A stretch of 64,000 bases of DNA, taken from assembly GCA_900552525.1 (NCBI GenBank), contig UNSK01000005.1:15081-79080 (forward strand), given 5' to 3'. The number at the start of each line of letters is the position of its first letter. Positions within the stretch are counted from its first letter, which is position 1. The position numbers and the translations under genes are program-made. This stretch comes from Candidatus Gastranaerophilales bacterium (GTDB lineage Bacteria; Cyanobacteriota; Vampirovibrionia; Gastranaerophilales; Gastranaerophilaceae). Shown here piece after piece: positions 1 to 8,840 of the stretch. Under the pieces are notes generated by a model, which made no database searches, was not told where the DNA came from, and was given only the letters and a program-made list of their open reading frames with translations.

Positions 1-1394
1 CTGATGGCGCCTGTTATTTTACCGCACCTACTGCTAATCTGTTTGTACTACAGGCAGTTGGTGCAGGCGGAGGCGGAGCTGTAGGAATGACAGGAGCTCC
101 ATCTTATACAAATGCTACAAAAACAATTAGCGGCAGTATTCCTACCGGTACCGGATTTCTTGCTGCAATAAATGACACCAAAAATGTTCCTGACTGGGTG
201 AGAAAAGAATGGAATAAACAATGGACAAGTGAATCAAAATGGATTAAATATACACTAGAATCTCCTATTGGAGGTTCCGGCAGGGCATATTGCGAACCAA
301 GACGTGTCGACTGGAATGACGGCTCTGGTTATAATAAATGTGCTGATTACTGTACAACAAACCTTGCAGAAACCTGTCCTCCAGAATGTCTAAGTAATTT
401 AGTTGCAGATGGGGGAAACTCAGGATATGGTGCCAAATATGTAGTTAAAACAAAATTAGAATATGATCCGGAAGGGCAGCAGGATAGTGTTGTTTTCAAC
501 CCTACATATGACGAAACAACACTGACAATAGGAACTAAAGAGGCCAAGCTTTTAGCCAGTGGTGCAGGAAAAAATGGTCAAGGTAATTATCCCTATGAAG
601 GCGTTGCAACTCCTGGCTCAAAAGGTGATGATATTCCTTTAACTACAGGCTCTAATAAGTATTTCTCTCTATCAGGGATGAAAGTTTACGGAACGCCTAC
701 AAAAACCTCTTTTCAGGCAGGTGGTACAGCTACAGAACATGATTGTTCCAATATGGCTGGTTCTTTCGCAAAACGAGGTTCAATCTCCGGCGGTAATCCA
801 AGTTCTATTTCATTCTATACCCAATCTCTTGCAATAAACGCAAACTATGGTGTAGCCGGTTCTCCGGGAAGTGCAGAGATGAGAATTCTTGAAAAACTAC
901 CTGCTGAAACACAGTTCAAATTAGTACCTGCCCAAAGTAACAGCGGGTCTAATACAGAATCTACAATTTATATAAAAAACAAACAAACCGGTGCCTGGGA
1001 AGTATTTATGCGTGTTTCCTCCGGAGCAGACGGCTGGGGCGGAAAAGAAATAATTGCTGTTGAAGAAGGCGATTTACCATTCCCTAAAGCATACTATCCA
1101 GATGCATTTAGACCATCTACACCTGAGCTGTCGATTTCATCAGGAGCTGGATACACCAGTTATCTTGCTAAAAACAATTTTTCACCGGGAGCATCAGGAG
1201 CCGGAGCACATCCTATAGTTACACATGTTAGCGGTAATGCATCACACATTATTAATGGCGTTACAACAGGTAATGAGAGTTTAGCGCCAATATCAGGTGC
1301 AAGTGCTTGCTATGACGGTTCAGAAAGTACTACCGGAACCTGTGGCAGCGGTAATACAAGCGGTAATCCAGGAGCAGTGATAATATCATGGTAA
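1..1394 (+). CDS. Glycine-rich pilin-like surface protein, 5' end missing
   Basis: The reading frame is already open at base 3, so the start lies before the window. The visible part begins with a C-Y-F-T-A-P segment followed by a stretch ending G-A-G-G-G-G-A. This matches the point in the gene at 1929 where the N-terminal region passes into a glycine-rich body (C-K-F-T-P-P ... G-G-G-A-G-G). The body is rich in Gly, Ser, Thr and Asn, with scattered Cys, and the protein ends G-N-P-G-A-V-I-I-S-W. A start such as F-x-x-P with a glycine block, and an end of G-x-x-x-I-I-x-W, are typical of the glycine-rich domain of phage tail fibres and bacterial surface proteins. By analogy with its neighbours the missing N-terminus is probably a type IV pilin helix (inference). 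The stop overlaps the next start by 7 bases, so the genes are probably co-translated. Confidence 0.75.
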   Translation, partial: DGACYFTAPTANLFVLQAVGAGGGGAVGMTGAPSYTNATKTISGSIPTGTGFLAAINDTKNVPDWVRKEWNKQWTSESKWIKYTLESPIGGSGRAYCEPRRVDWNDGSGYNKCADYCTTNLAETCPPECLSNLVADGGNSGYGAKYVVKTKLEYDPEGQQDSVVFNPTYDETTLTIGTKEAKLLASGAGKNGQGNYPYEGVATPGSKGDDIPLTTGSNKYFSLSGMKVYGTPTKTSFQAGGTATEHDCSNMAGSFAKRGSISGGNPSSISFYTQSLAINANYGVAGSPGSAEMRILEKLPAETQFKLVPAQSNSGSNTESTIYIKNKQTGAWEVFMRVSSGADGWGGKEIIAVEEGDLPFPKAYYPDAFRPSTPELSISSGAGYTSYLAKNNFSPGASGAGAHPIVTHVSGNASHIINGVTTGNESLAPISGASACYDGSESTTGTCGSGNTSGNPGAVIISW

Positions 1395-1909
1395 AAAAAG
1401 GTTTTTCTTTAGCAGAAGCACTTGTTGTAATGGCGATTATATCAATATTCTTCGCTGCTGCGTCTAAAATTATAACAACAAGACCAAAACCGCCAAAACA
1501 GGTTAACCAGCACGGCTATTACGAATGTTACTTAAATGTTTATCAGACTATAAATGCAGCCGGACAACAAGTAACAGTCAGCCGTCCGACACAGAGATAT
1601 GTTAGAAATAATGTTGCAACCGCTGCTGAAGAAGTTTCTTGTTCCTTTGAACCGCCAAATGGAATTGCATTCTATAACATCAATTCATATGGTCCGGTAT
1701 TCCACTCAAGTTTTGAACCTAATATTAAAAATACAATACAAATTACATTCACCGGTGCAGGTATAATACTTAAATCAGACACCGGAACATTAGACTTGCA
1801 GAGTAATTCTACACAAGAGAATGTAAAAATGTTTCTTAATACTTTATATCCTGATTCTCATATTTATAACAATGGAAATATAAGAGCAGGCGTAATAATT
1901 AGTTGGTAA
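1388..1909 (+). CDS. Short type IV pilin-like protein with IISW tail
   Basis: 173 residues. Residues 3-10 (K-K-G-F-S-L-A-E) form a class III prepilin peptidase site: cleavage after Gly5, Phe at +1 and Glu at +5. A hydrophobic helix of about 20 residues follows, as in type IV pilins and pseudopilins. After the helix come H-G-Y-Y-E-C-Y and then C-S-F-E-P-P, matching the equivalent segments of the gene at 1929. The long glycine-rich body is absent, but the protein still ends A-G-V-I-I-S-W. It may be a minor pilin or a shortened family member. The ATG overlaps the upstream stop codon, and an AGGAG lies about 13 bases upstream inside the previous gene. Confidence 0.8.
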   Translation: MVKKGFSLAEALVVMAIISIFFAAASKIITTRPKPPKQVNQHGYYECYLNVYQTINAAGQQVTVSRPTQRYVRNNVATAAEEVSCSFEPPNGIAFYNINSYGPVFHSSFEPNIKNTIQITFTGAGIILKSDTGTLDLQSNSTQENVKMFLNTLYPDSHIYNNGNIRAGVIISW

Positions 1910-1928
1910 GCATTATAAGAGGACTCAA

Positions 1929-3914
1929 ATGAAAAAACTTAAATTAAAATCCGGTTTTACATTAGTAGAGTTAATGGTATTTTTTATATTCATATCATTA
2001 CTTATGGCAGCTGCAACACCTATCATAACAAAGCGTGTTAAAAATCTGCCTATAAAAATTCACCACGGCAAGTTTGTATGCTATGGCGACAGGTATGAAT
2101 ATTACAATGCAACCAAACTGATTTCATCCGGAGCTGGATGCAAATTTACACCACCCAAAAGAGCTACTTTATTTAAAATAGAATTAGTTGGCGGCGGTGC
2201 CGGCGGTTACAGTTATACTCAGTTTTGGGAAGATAATGATACAAGAACCGGCGGATATGATTTAAAAAGCGGACATTATGGAGATGGCTATACTGACCCT
2301 ACTGATGGTCAGCTTCGTTATATATTAGAAAATGCTCCATTTACATGGGCTACAAAATCTACAGGCGGCACTTCCGGGGAAAGCGTTACCATGAGTTATG
2401 TTGGTATCGGAAGCCCTCATATTTCAATACAGGGTTCTTGCCAGGGAGATTGCTGGTCTGATCACTACGGCCCTTGGTATGATTGTATTAAGACAAGAAA
2501 AGTAAAAAAACAAACAGGCACAGATGAAGAAGGTAACCCTATATATACAGAAGTAGAAGAACAATATGAGTCTACTTGTCGTGATTGGCTTACTGATAAT
2601 CCGGATAATTTAATTTTATGCTCAACTTGCAGCAACTATCGTTCAGAAGCAAATAGCCTTGCATCTGAGATAAGCAGCCAGAGAACTTGCAGTGCAGGAG
2701 ATGAATGGTGCTATACTATTGCAACTTCCGGTTTTATTTCAGGTTATCAATCTCAAGCAGCTGCTATAGGCGGTTCTGACAACACCGGAGTTCTAGCCGA
2801 CTTCGGGGCAGGAACTTCTGAGTCAGGAGATGCTGAAAGAGGCGGTTATGGCCTTGGAATGTATATCGAGGGAAAAGTTGATTTCAAAGATTATAAAAAT
2901 GGCGGTAAAAAAGTTGAGAATTCAGAAGTTCGCAGCTATTTGAGCCAATTATTCGGTACTAGTTATCAAAAAGGTACAACAAGTGCCAGTGGAAGCTGCG
3001 GCGGCTGGGGATACAACGAAACTAAAAAAAGCACAGTTTCATTCGGCTCACATGACTTAATGGGTGAGAATGGTAACGATGTGCTCCATTATAATGCCCT
3101 CAAAGGCTGGGAAGCTTGTGCTACTAACTGTAGAAGAGCTAAAGGCGGCAGAGGCGGCTGGATTGATGATAATTACAGTACTATAACAGGAAGCTACTCT
3201 GATAGTTCGCCGATTCAGAGTGATAAAGATGCACAAGGTATTTGCGGACATGTTAATGGGCCTTACGCAGTAAAAGAAGGTAACGCAAGCGATAGAATAC
3301 CTAGCGTTACAACAAAAACAGAGCTTAATGTAAGACACCATCAGGTTGGAAACGGCGGCGGTTCAGCTTCTTATAAAGTTGCCTATGTTTCAAGCCTTGC
3401 TGATGATTGCGTATTCAATGTTTCCAGCGGCGGTCCGGCCATTAATGAAAGCATTTCTGACTCACAGCTTGATGATTTACATAACAGCCTGACAACATCG
3501 CTTGTATGTAATGAGGGAACGCTGCGTTTGGATGCTGAAGGCGGTTATTATAACAAATCGTTTACTCAAAAAGATTACGCAGGATTTGACTATCTAACAC
3601 CGGATGGTGAATCTACAGCACCGGGCTCATTTACAACATCTGCAGAAGGAGGCACATCTCCATACAGCCCTAAAGATGTATTTACAAAATACATTCTAGG
3701 CAGCAGCGGATTTGGTGCCGGCGGAAGCGGAAGTAAAATCGTAGACGGTTGTACAAAACCTTGGGGCGAATACTGGATTAATAGAGTATACGGCTCAAGC
3801 GTTGATAAAACATCGCATCACCAAATTCCGCGTACTGAATGCGATGAAAAGGCACAAATTAGTACAACTGGAGGCAGCAGCGGCTCTGCCGGTGTAATTA
3901 TAATCTCATGGTAA
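1929..3914 (+). CDS. Type IV pilin with tail-fibre-like glycine-rich body
   Basis: 661 residues, far longer than ordinary type IV pilins (about 150-200). The N-terminus has a prepilin site (S-G-F-T-L-V-E, Glu at +5) and a hydrophobic helix to about residue 30. Next come H-H-G-K-F-V-C-Y and C-K-F-T-P-P-K-R-A-T-L-F-K-I, then a very Gly/Ser-rich body of about 600 residues with many cysteines, often paired (C-S-T-C, C-A-T-N-C). It ends A-G-V-I-I-I-S-W. The body resembles the glycine-rich domain found at the ends of phage tail fibres. The expected product is an inner-membrane-anchored, processed pilin carrying a large, possibly disulfide-stabilised adhesive domain at a fibre tip (inference). AGAGGA lies upstream of the ATG. 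It is co-directional with its pilin neighbours. Confidence 0.85.
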   Translation: MKKLKLKSGFTLVELMVFFIFISLLMAAATPIITKRVKNLPIKIHHGKFVCYGDRYEYYNATKLISSGAGCKFTPPKRATLFKIELVGGGAGGYSYTQFWEDNDTRTGGYDLKSGHYGDGYTDPTDGQLRYILENAPFTWATKSTGGTSGESVTMSYVGIGSPHISIQGSCQGDCWSDHYGPWYDCIKTRKVKKQTGTDEEGNPIYTEVEEQYESTCRDWLTDNPDNLILCSTCSNYRSEANSLASEISSQRTCSAGDEWCYTIATSGFISGYQSQAAAIGGSDNTGVLADFGAGTSESGDAERGGYGLGMYIEGKVDFKDYKNGGKKVENSEVRSYLSQLFGTSYQKGTTSASGSCGGWGYNETKKSTVSFGSHDLMGENGNDVLHYNALKGWEACATNCRRAKGGRGGWIDDNYSTITGSYSDSSPIQSDKDAQGICGHVNGPYAVKEGNASDRIPSVTTKTELNVRHHQVGNGGGSASYKVAYVSSLADDCVFNVSSGGPAINESISDSQLDDLHNSLTTSLVCNEGTLRLDAEGGYYNKSFTQKDYAGFDYLTPDGESTAPGSFTTSAEGGTSPYSPKDVFTKYILGSSGFGAGGSGSKIVDGCTKPWGEYWINRVYGSSVDKTSHHQIPRTECDEKAQISTTGGSSGSAGVIIISW

Positions 3915-3933
3915 AAAAGAAAGGTAATAATTT

Positions 3934-4590
3934 ATGAATAATAAACAGGGTTTTACTTTAGGTGAAATTGCAATCACAATTGCAGTAGTCGGGTTTCTGG
4001 CAGCAATGTTTCTGCCGATGATTAAAAATGCAATACCAAATCAGGAACAGTTAATGTTTAAAAAAGCTTATTACCTGACAGAAAGAAGCGTTTCGGAATT
4101 GGTTAACGATGAAGATTATTATCCTGAAATTGACGATGATGTTGACGCAAAACAATACTTCGGCAATACTGTAAAAGTTGTATCACAGGGCAGACAATAC
4201 GAAGGAACTACAAAGTTTTGCGAATTGTTTGCTATGAGGCTTAATAAAGCATCTGACGTTGACTGTAAAGCAAAAACATTTACCAACGGTGCTAATCCTG
4301 TAGGAACATTGACCGCTGCTGATGGTATTGTTTGGATACTTCCGGTAAGCAACTTTGCAAACGAAACTACTGCAGAAAAGATTTATCTGGATGTTAATGG
4401 CAACAAAAAGCCAAACTGTTTCTATGACAAGGATAAATGTAAAACTCCTGACAGATTTACTATAAAAGTTTATCAGGACGGCAGGGTTGAAGCTGACGGA
4501 ACTATGGAAATAGAATATCTTAATAAGATTAATATCAGCAAAGATAGTAAGGCTGAAACATCAAAAGTCAAACAAGATTTAGGATACTAA
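3934..4590 (+). CDS. Type IV pilin / type II secretion pseudopilin-like protein
   Basis: 218 residues. The site Q-G-F-T-L-G-E at residues 5-11 is a prepilin cleavage motif with Glu at +5, followed by a helix rich in Ala, Ile and Val. The C-terminal part contains D-G-I-V-W-I-L-P and, further on, L-D-V-N-G-N-K-K-P-N. The second block recurs in the next gene as V-D-I-N-G-S-K-K-P-N, so the two are paralogues. It lacks the glycine-rich body and the IISW tail of the three genes before it, and may be a core or minor pilin of the same fibre. AAAGGT precedes the ATG, and the gap to the previous gene is 19 bases. Confidence 0.82.
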   Translation: MNNKQGFTLGEIAITIAVVGFLAAMFLPMIKNAIPNQEQLMFKKAYYLTERSVSELVNDEDYYPEIDDDVDAKQYFGNTVKVVSQGRQYEGTTKFCELFAMRLNKASDVDCKAKTFTNGANPVGTLTAADGIVWILPVSNFANETTAEKIYLDVNGNKKPNCFYDKDKCKTPDRFTIKVYQDGRVEADGTMEIEYLNKINISKDSKAETSKVKQDLGY

Positions 4591-4594
4591 TAAT

Positions 4595-5575
4595 ATGAAA
4601 AATATAAAATTCGGATTCACTCTGGGAGAAGTGTTGTGCGCACTGGGCATTATCGGAATATGTACTGCTCTTGCACTTACAACAATGAAACCTGCGGAGA
4701 AAAAAGCCACTAAATATCTGTATATGAATGCTTATAACTCGTTAGAAAAAGCATATTATAACTCTGTACTTATTGGTAAAAATCCATTCAGGGAAGAACC
4801 GGATGAAACCGGAAATGTGCTGATTCACTCAGATACAGAAGATACGGGTACACAGCTTCTATGTGAAGGTCTTACGACTTATATTAACACTGCTACTAAT
4901 AAAAAAGATGCGGACGACGATTTCAGTACAACCTGCTCGTCTACCAAGCTTACAAGCGAGATGGCTGAGCCGGAAGATTTTACTGATGATAATGTGCAAT
5001 TTATAGCATCAAATGGTATGAAATTTTATATCAGTAAATTAATAACAAAAGATGACTTAAAATTCTACCTTGTATTTGTTGATATAAACGGTTCTAAAAA
5101 ACCTAATTCAATTGAATATACCTACAAATTTACTCATATAGAAAGTGAAAAAAAGGCAGAAAAGAACAGAATAGAACCGGATATTTACGCATTTGCAATT
5201 CTTGACACAGGAAGAATATGTCCGATTGGTATTCCTGAATATGATTCAAATGTATTAACGGCAAGATTTGCATATTTTACGGATTCCGGCGATCCTCTCT
5301 ACACGCATAAATCTATGGCATATTATCAGGCTAAAGGCGCTGCGTGGGGATATTACAGCGGAACAAAACCTGATCCGATGGAATACAATCCTGATGAACC
5401 GTTTACAATGAACGATGCTATAAGAGCTGCTATAAATTCCGGAAGCAAAATTGTTAGTGATTTCCCTGACTTAAAATCTCTTGAACCGTCGTCGCTTTCA
5501 GGCTCAGCACCTTATCACTGCTCTAATGAAGACCTCGAATCATGTTATATATTCCTTGATGAATACAGACAGTAA
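4595..5575 (+). CDS. Type IV pilin / pseudopilin-like protein
   Basis: 326 residues, last of the five-gene pilin cluster. The N-terminus contains F-G-F-T-L-G-E (cleavage after Gly, Glu at +5) and a hydrophobic helix to about residue 27. A region rich in Asp, Glu and Lys follows. It carries F-V-D-I-N-G-S-K-K-P-N, the motif shared with the gene at 3934, and a C-terminal part with two cysteines near the end. No pilus ATPase, platform protein or prepilin peptidase lies in the window, so the assembly machine must be encoded elsewhere. The gap to the previous gene is 4 bases and the gene ends just before a large palindrome. Confidence 0.8.
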   Translation: MKNIKFGFTLGEVLCALGIIGICTALALTTMKPAEKKATKYLYMNAYNSLEKAYYNSVLIGKNPFREEPDETGNVLIHSDTEDTGTQLLCEGLTTYINTATNKKDADDDFSTTCSSTKLTSEMAEPEDFTDDNVQFIASNGMKFYISKLITKDDLKFYLVFVDINGSKKPNSIEYTYKFTHIESEKKAEKNRIEPDIYAFAILDTGRICPIGIPEYDSNVLTARFAYFTDSGDPLYTHKSMAYYQAKGAAWGYYSGTKPDPMEYNPDEPFTMNDAIRAAINSGSKIVSDFPDLKSLEPSSLSGSAPYHCSNEDLESCYIFLDEYRQ

Positions 5576-6014: not shown

Positions 6015-8840
6015 ATGACAGACAAAATCGTTATTAAAGGAGCAAGAGAACATAACCTGAAAAACGTTTCTCTGGAAATTCCTAAAAACGAATTAGTAGT
6101 TTTTACCGGTGTTTCCGGCTCGGGGAAGAGTTCACTAGCTTTTGATACAATTTTCGCAGAAGGACAGAGAAGGTATATTGAGAGCCTCTCTACTTATGCC
6201 CGCCAATTTTTAGGACAGATGGATAAGCCGGATGTTGATTACATCGACGGGCTTACTCCTGCTATTTCTATTGACCAGAAATCAACAAGCAACAACCCGC
6301 GCTCAACAGTAGGAACTGTTACTGAAATTTATGATTATTTAAGGCTTTTATATGCCAGAATCGGAACGCCTTACTGTCCAAAGTGCGGCAAACCCATACG
6401 GCCACAGACAATTGACGAAATTGTCGACAGTATTCTTAAACTGGAAACGGGAACTAAAATACAAATCCTTGCTCCTATAGTTAAAGGTAAAAAAGGTGAA
6501 TTTCAATCTCTGTTTGAAGAATTGAGGCAGGAAGGTTTTGTTAGAATTAAGGCTGACGGAGAGGTTTACAATCTTGATGAGGATGAAATTAAGCTTGCAA
6601 AGACAAAAGCACATACAATATCCGTTGTTGTAGACCGCGTTGTAGTCAAACCGGAAGCACGCTCAAGAATTGCTGACAGCGTTCAAATAGCACTCCAAAA
6701 AGCTGACGGACTCTGTCTTATTGATGTAATCGGTGCAGAAGAATTAATATACAGTGAAAAGCTTGCATGTCCGGATTGTAACCTAAGTTTTGAGGAATTA
6801 ACTCCGCGTATTTTCTCTTTCAATGCTCCTTACGGCGCCTGCGATAAATGCGGCGGGATTGGTGTCGATTTCAAAATCGACCCTGATTTGGTTATACCCG
6901 ATAGGAATAAATCAATAAAAGAAGGTGCTATTTATCCGTGGAGTAAATCTTCAACCGGATACTACGATGATGTCCTTAAAGCTGTACAGGAAGCGTATAA
7001 AATGGATTTTGACATCCCGTTTAAAGAACTTCCGCAAGAACATCAAGACATTATCTTATACGGCTCTGATGAGCGTATACCAATGCGTATTAGAGAGTTT
7101 GGGAGCAAAAGATACAGAACAAGTCTGCAAAAATTCATAGGTGTTATTCCATTCCTCAGGAAACATTACAATGTTGACAGCGAATACTGGAAAGCCGAAA
7201 TAGAAAAATATATGGTTACAACACCTTGTGAAAAATGCGGCGGAGCAAGGCTTAAACCATTCCCCCTAGCGGTTAGAATTAACGGTATTAATATTTACGA
7301 ATTCTGCCTCATGCCGGTTGATAAAGCTTATGAATTTGTAACAGATTTATACTTAACACTTTCTGATTTTCAGATGAAAATCGGAAAACAGATTTTAGAT
7401 GAGGTGCGCGCAAGGTTAAAATTCCTCTGCGATGTCGGACTTAATTACCTGAACCTTGCGCGCACCTCTGGAACACTTTCCGGAGGAGAAGCTCAGAGAA
7501 TCAGGCTCGCTACACAAATCGGAAGCGGACTGTCTGGTGTTCTTTACGTTCTGGACGAACCTTCAATAGGACTGCACCAGCGTGATAATGACAGGCTTAT
7601 CAAAACCTTACTGAAACTCCGAAATATGGGAAACTCGCTTATTGTAGTCGAACACGATGAAGATACAATAAGAAATGCAGATTACATTGTAGATATCGGC
7701 CCTAAAGCAGGAGTCAACGGCGGAAATATTATTGCTCAAGGATGTGTAGAAGATATTATTAAAGCGTCTGACTCCATCACCGGACAATATTTGAGCGGTG
7801 AACGAAATATTCCTGTACCTAAAAAAACAAGAGAAGGTAATGGAAATTATCTGCAGGTTAGAAACGCACATCTCAACAACCTCAAAAATATAGATATTGA
7901 TATTCCTCTCGGAAAAATCGTTGTATTAACAGGGGTTTCTGGTTCTGGTAAATCCACACTTATGCAGGATTTGATTTATGAATACGCTGTTCACAAGCTC
8001 AGAAAGAACCGGCCGAAACCTCAGGGCGTTGACGAAATATTAGGATTTGAGAATCTTGATAAAATAATCGATATTGACCAGTCGCCAATCGGAAGAACTC
8101 CGCGTTCAAATCCGGCAACTTACACAGATGTTTTCACTCCTATAAGAGAACTTTATGCAAAAACAAATGAAGCTAAAATGCGAGGCTATAAACCCGGCAG
8201 ATTCAGCTTTAACGTAAAAGGCGGAAGGTGCGAAGCCTGTTCCGGCGACGGTGTATTAAAAATCGAAATGAACTTCCTCTCTGATGTTTACGTCAAATGC
8301 GATGTCTGCAAAGGAAAACGCTATAACAATGAAACATTAGAAGTTAAGTACAAAGGTAAAACTATTGCAGATGTTTTGGAAATGAGCGTAAAAGAAGCTT
8401 ACGAATTTTTCGAAAATATACCGCAGATTGCTAACAAATTAAAAACACTTGTTGATGTCGGTCTGGATTATATTAAGCTCGGGCAAAGCGCCACAACACT
8501 CTCTGGCGGAGAAGCACAACGAATTAAGCTGGCTTCTGAGCTCAATAAACGAGCAACCGGAAAGACTCTTTACCTTCTTGACGAGCCTTCTGTAGGATTG
8601 CACTGGTATGATTTGGATAAATTAATTAAAATTATCCAGCAGCTTGCTGATAATGGAAATACAATTTTAATCATTGAACACAACCTTGATTTAATAAAAA
8701 TTGCAGACTATATAATTGATCTCGGGCCTGAAGGCGGTGATATGGGCGGAAATATTGTTGCCTGCGGAACACCGAGAGAAGTTGCCAAAAATCCAAACTC
8801 TTATACAGGACAATATTTGAAGCAGTTTTTTCAGAAATAA
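6015..8840 (+). CDS. uvrA: Excinuclease ABC subunit A
   Basis: 941 residues, the usual UvrA length. UvrA is the damage-recognition ATPase of nucleotide excision repair and loads UvrB. Two ABC ATPase modules are visible: Walker [10 protein letters not shown] near residue 33 and again G-V-S-G-S-G-K-S-T in the second half. Each half has an L-S-G-G-E-A-Q-R-I signature and a Walker B ending L-D-E-P-S. Zinc modules appear as C-P-K-C-G, C-D-K-C-G-G and C-E-A-C-S-G-D-G with C-D-V-C-K-G. uvrC follows 15 bases downstream but has its own -10 box, so the two can be transcribed separately. Confidence 0.98.

Follow-up and report, generated by a model that had tools for sequence, protein, structure and literature searches.

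Pilins that carry extra modules have been described in Streptococcus sanguinis, where they are proposed to sit at the pilus tip and bind host ligands (PMC8179133, PMC9934059), and three minor pilins of this organism, two of them modular, have been modelled as a tip complex (PMC9934059, PMC8179133). A comparable adhesive design is known from T2-type phages, in which the polyglycine II sandwich of gp38 presents variable loops on a glycine-rich scaffold at the adhesive tip (PMC12892980). For the Gastranaerophilales, partial pilus gene sets have been reported, with one termite-gut genome containing pilA, B, C, D and T (PMC5877343). Here we analyse a stretch of 64,000 nucleotides from a Candidatus Gastranaerophilales bacterium, related to the non-photosynthetic cyanobacteria of the gut (contig UNSK01000005.1; hereafter the window), at the left end of which five pilin genes, A to E, lie in series (positions 1-5575). 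We consider it fairly probable that the first three, A, B and C, encode three paralogous modular pilins that form a complex at the tip of a type IV pilus and serve attachment. How Gastranaerophilales, known mostly from gut metagenomes, attach to their habitat is to our knowledge an open question.

Among the closest counterparts is PilABC of S. sanguinis, modelled as a ligand-binding pilus cap, with which A, B and C share the number of minor pilins and the joining of a prepilin helix to a large extra module. In S. sanguinis, however, the extra modules are of the vWA and lectin types and are missing from PilA, whereas related bodies and a common closing end occur in all three of A, B and C, the bodies of A and C being glycine-rich. 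They also resemble the GspHIJK or four-minor-pilin tip complex in forming an adjacent set for which a tip position is assumed, but all three keep Glu5 (A as judged from homologues), and where B and C match Gsp and Com models, the match is confined to their first 57 residues. A third likeness is to PF21722 (Gly_rich_2) and to PHROG 863, 416 and 6202, which share the F-x-P start, the glycine-rich turn and the terminal G-x-V-I-x-W/Y strand. Pilins of the same family in related genomes match these families significantly; the window proteins, in contrast, fall below detection, C contains large Cys-containing stretches, and the whole is borne by a pilin and not by a phage tail. The likeness to gp38, a glycine-rich scaffold with variable loops, is an analogy only, compared solely through general fold searches. 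We found no description of the trio among the titles and abstracts surveyed; the domain may be included in the supplementary list of modular pilins in PMC8179133.

Pilin architecture and the shared C-terminal end

The original prediction had recognized two prepilin cleavage sites, and both are present, each followed by about 20 hydrophobic residues: KKG/FSLAE in B and KSG/FTLVE in C. A is truncated by the window edge, its frame opening at base 3 (DGACYFTAP...GAGGGG), and its site is seen in the complete homologue P0079 (553 amino acids, 94% identity), which opens with a prepilin site and helix and scores 22.3 bits in the pilin profile test. With TIGR02532, B passes the cut-off of 16.3 bits (23.9 bits) and C stays under it (12.2 bits). 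AlphaFold2 models of B (pLDDT 88.4, pTM 0.70) and C (pLDDT 85.3, pTM 0.59) have N-terminal helices at residues 8-29 and 12-34, respectively, with residues 1-7 and 31-41 of C modelled at low confidence. A PilT family ATPase over the cut-off and one secretin were found in all 12 relatives' genomes tested, and PilM_2 in none of these 12.

The three neighbours end as had been noticed, with AVIISW in A, AGVIISW in B and AGVIIISW in C. The terminal W recurs in 76 of 78 homologues of C, 28 of 31 of A and 63 of 66 of B; two C, two A and three B homologues without it have unrelated ends, as in broken or cut proteins, and one A homologue ends in IAY. Under a stricter pattern (two hydrophobic residues, any residue, W), 76 C, 27 A and 47 B homologues fit, the shortfall in B being due mostly to F or another residue at the first position. 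In an alignment of the window C with 67 of its 78 homologues (A1; eleven omitted, 68 rows), G655, I659 and W661 are invariant, as are G168 and W173 in an alignment of the window B with 61 of its 66 (A2; five omitted, 62 rows), and the shared end is therefore more than chance. In the models of B and C, the tails form the last beta strand.

Across 63 loci, a hydrophobic-hydrophobic-x-W end closes 129 of the 188 pilins found by pattern and 7 of the 449 other open reading frames of at least 100 amino acids. These counts are descriptive, as a match to the C family, or proximity to one, was the basis for choosing the loci. A sequence edge truncates two of the seven frames (among them the window A itself), and the remaining five start, as we read them, with a pilin-like helix that the pattern missed. 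Because the loci were selected for containing such pilins, D and E within the operon are the fairer control; both are pilins, and neither has the W end. The overlap between the end of A and the start of B (TCATGGTAA) was considered as the cause of the shared W and rejected, because B and C close in the same way although neither end overlaps a following gene like this.

The post-helix module and the link to tail fibres

Behind the helix, A, B and C have a common module, HGxxxC...CxFxPP, that D and E lack. The two motifs first proposed, H-G-x-F/Y-x-C-Y and C-x-F-x-P-P, were borne out as HGYYECY and CSFEPP in B and as HGKFVCY and CKFTPP in C. In the module consensus, HGxxxC...CxFxPPxxAxxFxIxxVGGGGGG, the H, the G, both C and the F are invariant in 20 of 20 fragments. 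The 661-residue C, described at the outset as full of cysteine pairs, contains 18 Cys, of which only six (51, 71, 494, 527, 608 and 638) are invariant in all 68 rows of A1. A pilin at another locus (L063) has about 1000 residues and 56 Cys.

We compared helix-free profiles of the window clade (Aw, Bw, Cw), of the trio in the rest of the order (profiles A, B, C), and of D and E with a set, R, of fifteen pilins from loci L116-L127 (genomes G109, G078, G102, G134, G084 and G141), ten with PF21722 over its curated cut-off of 24.3 bits and five (L122, L123) not over it. Against those ten, Cw gave E 2.3e-10, Aw 6.2e-7 and Bw 7.4e-6, as compared with E 0.052 to 0.98 for reversed and column-shuffled controls, and D and E gave no match (E 0.78 and 0.83). 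Local profile comparison with all fifteen pilins of R gave E 1.3e-10 for Cw, 1.6e-8 for Aw and 1.1e-6 for Bw, and it also joined Cw to C (2.3e-20), A to R (3e-22), Bw to B (2.3e-18), Bw to Cw (2.8e-8), Cw to A (9.1e-11), Aw to Bw (7.4e-6) and Aw to Cw (3.9e-5), with ten reversed and thirty column-shuffled controls (ten pairs) at E 0.08 to 0.98. D and E resemble one another (E 1.4e-11 in one direction, 5.2e-14 in the other) and show no match to A-C or R (E at least 0.25). An earlier full comparison, which aligned across both ends of most profiles, is used for the D/E contrast only, and strength is taken from the local tests.

The strength of the match to R lies mainly in the first 40-80 residues, that is, in the module. 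In the C-terminal parts there are weaker, separate local matches, between Cw 439-627 and R 316-478 (E 1.7e-5) and between Aw 489-499 and R (E 0.0012), and the tails alone match Gly_rich_2 pilins weakly (E 0.0026 and 0.011; 0.22 for the B tail). By these profile comparisons, the window-clade bodies of A, B and C are shown to be homologous to Gly_rich_2-bearing pilins, mainly by way of the module.

The link to tail fibres is supported through relatives. Among the 146 genomes of the order, 22 have a PF21722 match at E<=0.001 and 17 one over the cut-off, and seven pilins picked for such matches score 40.7-63.5 bits. Trios outside the window clade straddle the cut-off (C of G066, 27.9 bits; B of G027, 25.7; A of G042, 25.0), and a scan of ten proteins gave matches at E<=1 in six, of which one, a lone pilin at L062, passes the cut-off. 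The match can start inside the module, as in L050 C (residues 81-106 on profile positions 7-32) and L056 B (88-174 on 12-98). PHROG 863, 'tail fiber assembly', is matched with a best E of 4e-16, by five of the seven Gly_rich_2 pilins at E<=2.4e-5 and by the remaining two at E 0.0021 and 0.02. PHROG 6202, 'tail fiber protein' (E 2.6e-5), aligns its last position, 636 of 636, with the last residue, 457, of a pilin at L117, and the PF21722 match of a pilin at L119 reaches its last residue, 603, at profile position 225 of 226.

Several results weigh against carrying this link over to the window proteins. The profile search suggested by the original prediction detected no match to PF21722 in any of the three window proteins at E<=1, nor any in the 68 rows of A1. 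Glycine-rich bodies had been expected throughout, and A and C have them; B of the window clade, with 173 amino acids, 5.7% Gly and a small body, does not. Structure prediction placed the shared end as a last strand, but fold-library searches with the models gave no significant match, a Foldseek search of a viral library returning weak glycine-rich viral proteins at ranks 5-6 (prob 0.41 and 0.30, E 0.13). Since other trios straddle the cut-off while the window clade gives no match, we regard the PF21722 signal as a gradient across the family, with the window at its divergent end. As far as sequence comparison goes, the proposed union of pilin and tail-fibre domain is right for the family and indirect for A, B and C of the window: the extra domain of a modular pilin is present in relatives, and in the window proteins by homology only.

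The lone pilin of L062 (5328-7748), an 806-residue frame with Gly_rich_2 at 28.1 bits, also has a sub-threshold match to Lcl_C (25.9 bits, cut-off 34.9); the Lcl domain is described from an adhesin.

Distribution and paralogy of the trio

The C-family profile matches 96 of the 146 genomes of the order at E<=1e-5, many of the weak matches covering little beyond the helix. Among 386 genomes of the phylum, 71 have the helix-free module, and these are without exception 1.5-2.5 megabases (Mb) in size; exactly three module matches are found in 40 of them and one to nine in the others. Among the 20 non-matching genomes shown (of 315), the module is absent from genomes of 2.8-6.5 Mb. The architecture of N-terminal helix plus W end, which we had been advised to seek in related genomes, recurs there in 28 runs of three adjacent tailed pilins besides that of the window.

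In a tree of 87 fragments, the trio positions cluster, requiring 6 changes (minimum 2) against a shuffled mean of 41.8. The clusters are broken by long-branch rows of G132 and G134 in this tree of few columns, and in bootstrap trees no trio position forms one clade. Judging from the clustering, the trio positions are old paralogous lineages. Three genomes (G090, G092 and G137) each have seven or eight scattered pilin matches. In G145, two divergent trio operons adjoin (L047 and L048), and an adjacent A-C pair without B lies elsewhere in the genome.

Sequence variation and the proposed tip complex

Window C and its eight closest homologues differ at 127 sites, which are unevenly distributed. 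Residues 1-118 are invariant and 1-145 nearly constant; at residues 187-216, the hottest segment of the most variable stretch (Table 1), 19 of 30 residues vary, a value reached in 0 of 2000 permutations, and residues 361-450 and 541-570 are variable as well. In sequence, an exposed binding surface would show just such variable stretches on a constant frame, and relaxed constraint may be an alternative cause.

We favour a three-part adhesive tip because of these variable stretches on a constant frame and because of the tip-complex model of S. sanguinis. The trio would have arisen from one modular pilin by old tandem duplication, and A, B and C would be minor type IV pilins whose N-terminal helix serves for their export, cleavage and assembly into the pilus. 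Behind the helix would follow a beta module whose two invariant Cys probably form a disulfide, with the CxFxPP..A..F strand and the C-terminal G-hydrophobic-x-W strand predicted to flank a Gly_rich_2-type body of the kind known from phage tail fibres. The three proteins would most likely contact one another in a complex at the tip, where C (and A) may display variable loops that bind gut surfaces, B having presumably been reduced in the window clade to a small connecting subunit. More tentatively, we suggest that Gastranaerophilales bear at the pilus tip an adhesin of three subunits, which arose when a fusion between a pilin and a phage-tail-fibre-type glycine-rich domain was triplicated. Its variable loops would sit on a constant scaffold, and pili and phage fibres would have this binding module in common.

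It seems unlikely to us that the trio acts mainly as an assembly primer, a counterpart of the GspIJK pseudopilin tip that starts the filament, with its glycine-rich bodies as ligand-free caps or spacers. A set of three neighbouring minor pilins followed by additional pilins does resemble assembly-priming tip sets as described in PMC9934059, and B, though small in the window clade, has been retained; but A and C proteins of about 350-1200 amino acids in the order, and the strong and uneven variation of C, exceed what a primer would appear to need. We give still less credence to tips made for DNA uptake or for contact with other bacteria in place of attachment to host or mucin, even though ComZ of Thermus, a large minor pilin that carries an additional domain, is presumed to bind DNA (PMC8179133), and PilT with one secretin is compatible with any retractile pilus. 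We regard it as highly improbable that the IISW end, which closes A, B and C almost without variation, is read by the pilus machinery as a tag for sorting or export and is not an element of the fold: D and E carry a helix signal of the same kind without it, a like strand is non-terminal in relatives (L134, ...GFVKVEYQIRCQ; L136, ...GYVKIEWGNI; L062, ...YLYWTEYN), and the Gly_rich_2 and PHROG 6202 matches of L119 and L117 extend to the same terminal place.

A widespread set, usually of three sister pilins with a tail-fibre-type body, is a concrete candidate for attachment that would link a phage fibre module to pilus tips. It would also offer a natural series, from the large B of some clades to the small B of the window clade, for dissecting the roles of tip subunits.

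Operon layout and neighbourhood

The features of the operon are collected in Table 1. Genes A and B overlap by 7 bases. The five-gene order A-E is identical at L001 (Candidatus Gastranaerophilales) and similar at L002 (Cyanobacteria bacterium SIG28), which has two extra D-like genes.

Table 1. Positions of the pilin genes and their parts in the window.
Feature	Position	Strand	Remarks
Gene A, large modular pilin, 463 amino acids in window	3..1394	+	N-terminal helix outside window
A module, remaining part, CYFTAPTANLFVLQAVGAGGGGA	12..80	+	
A tail GAVIISW	1371..1391	+	
Gene B, small pilin, 173 amino acids	1388..1909	+	N_methyl 27.3 bits, cut-off 21.2
B module HGYYECY...CSFEPP	1511..1657	+	Cys47 and Cys85 in 62/62 rows of A2
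B tail GVIISW, predicted last beta strand, residues 168-172	1889..1906	+	
Gene C, large modular pilin, 661 amino acids	1929..3914	+	
C prepilin site and hydrophobic helix	1950..2030	+	N_methyl 14.8 bits, under cut-off 21.2
C module HGKFVCY...CKFTPPKRATLFKIELVGGGAGG	2061..2207	+	
C residues 151-300, most variable stretch	2379..2828	+	56/127 variable sites; hot segment, residues 187-216
C tail GVIIISW, predicted last beta strand, residues 656-660	3891..3911	+	
Gene D, different pilin family, without module or tail	3934..4590	+	
Gene E, D-related pilin, without module or tail	4595..5575	+	

Downstream of E, an open reading frame of 117 amino acids is followed by two genes that we take, from their sequences, to be uvrA (6015-8840) and uvrC. 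A uvrA directly behind the pilin operon is likewise seen at L050, L051 and L057, loci of another clade, and this neighbourhood, with uvrA named from sequence, may be old. At the end of C, window positions 3908-3930 (TCATGGTAAAAAAGAAAGG) resemble the A/B junction at the start of B (TCATGGTAAAAAAAGG), which may be a relic of the duplication that formed the trio.

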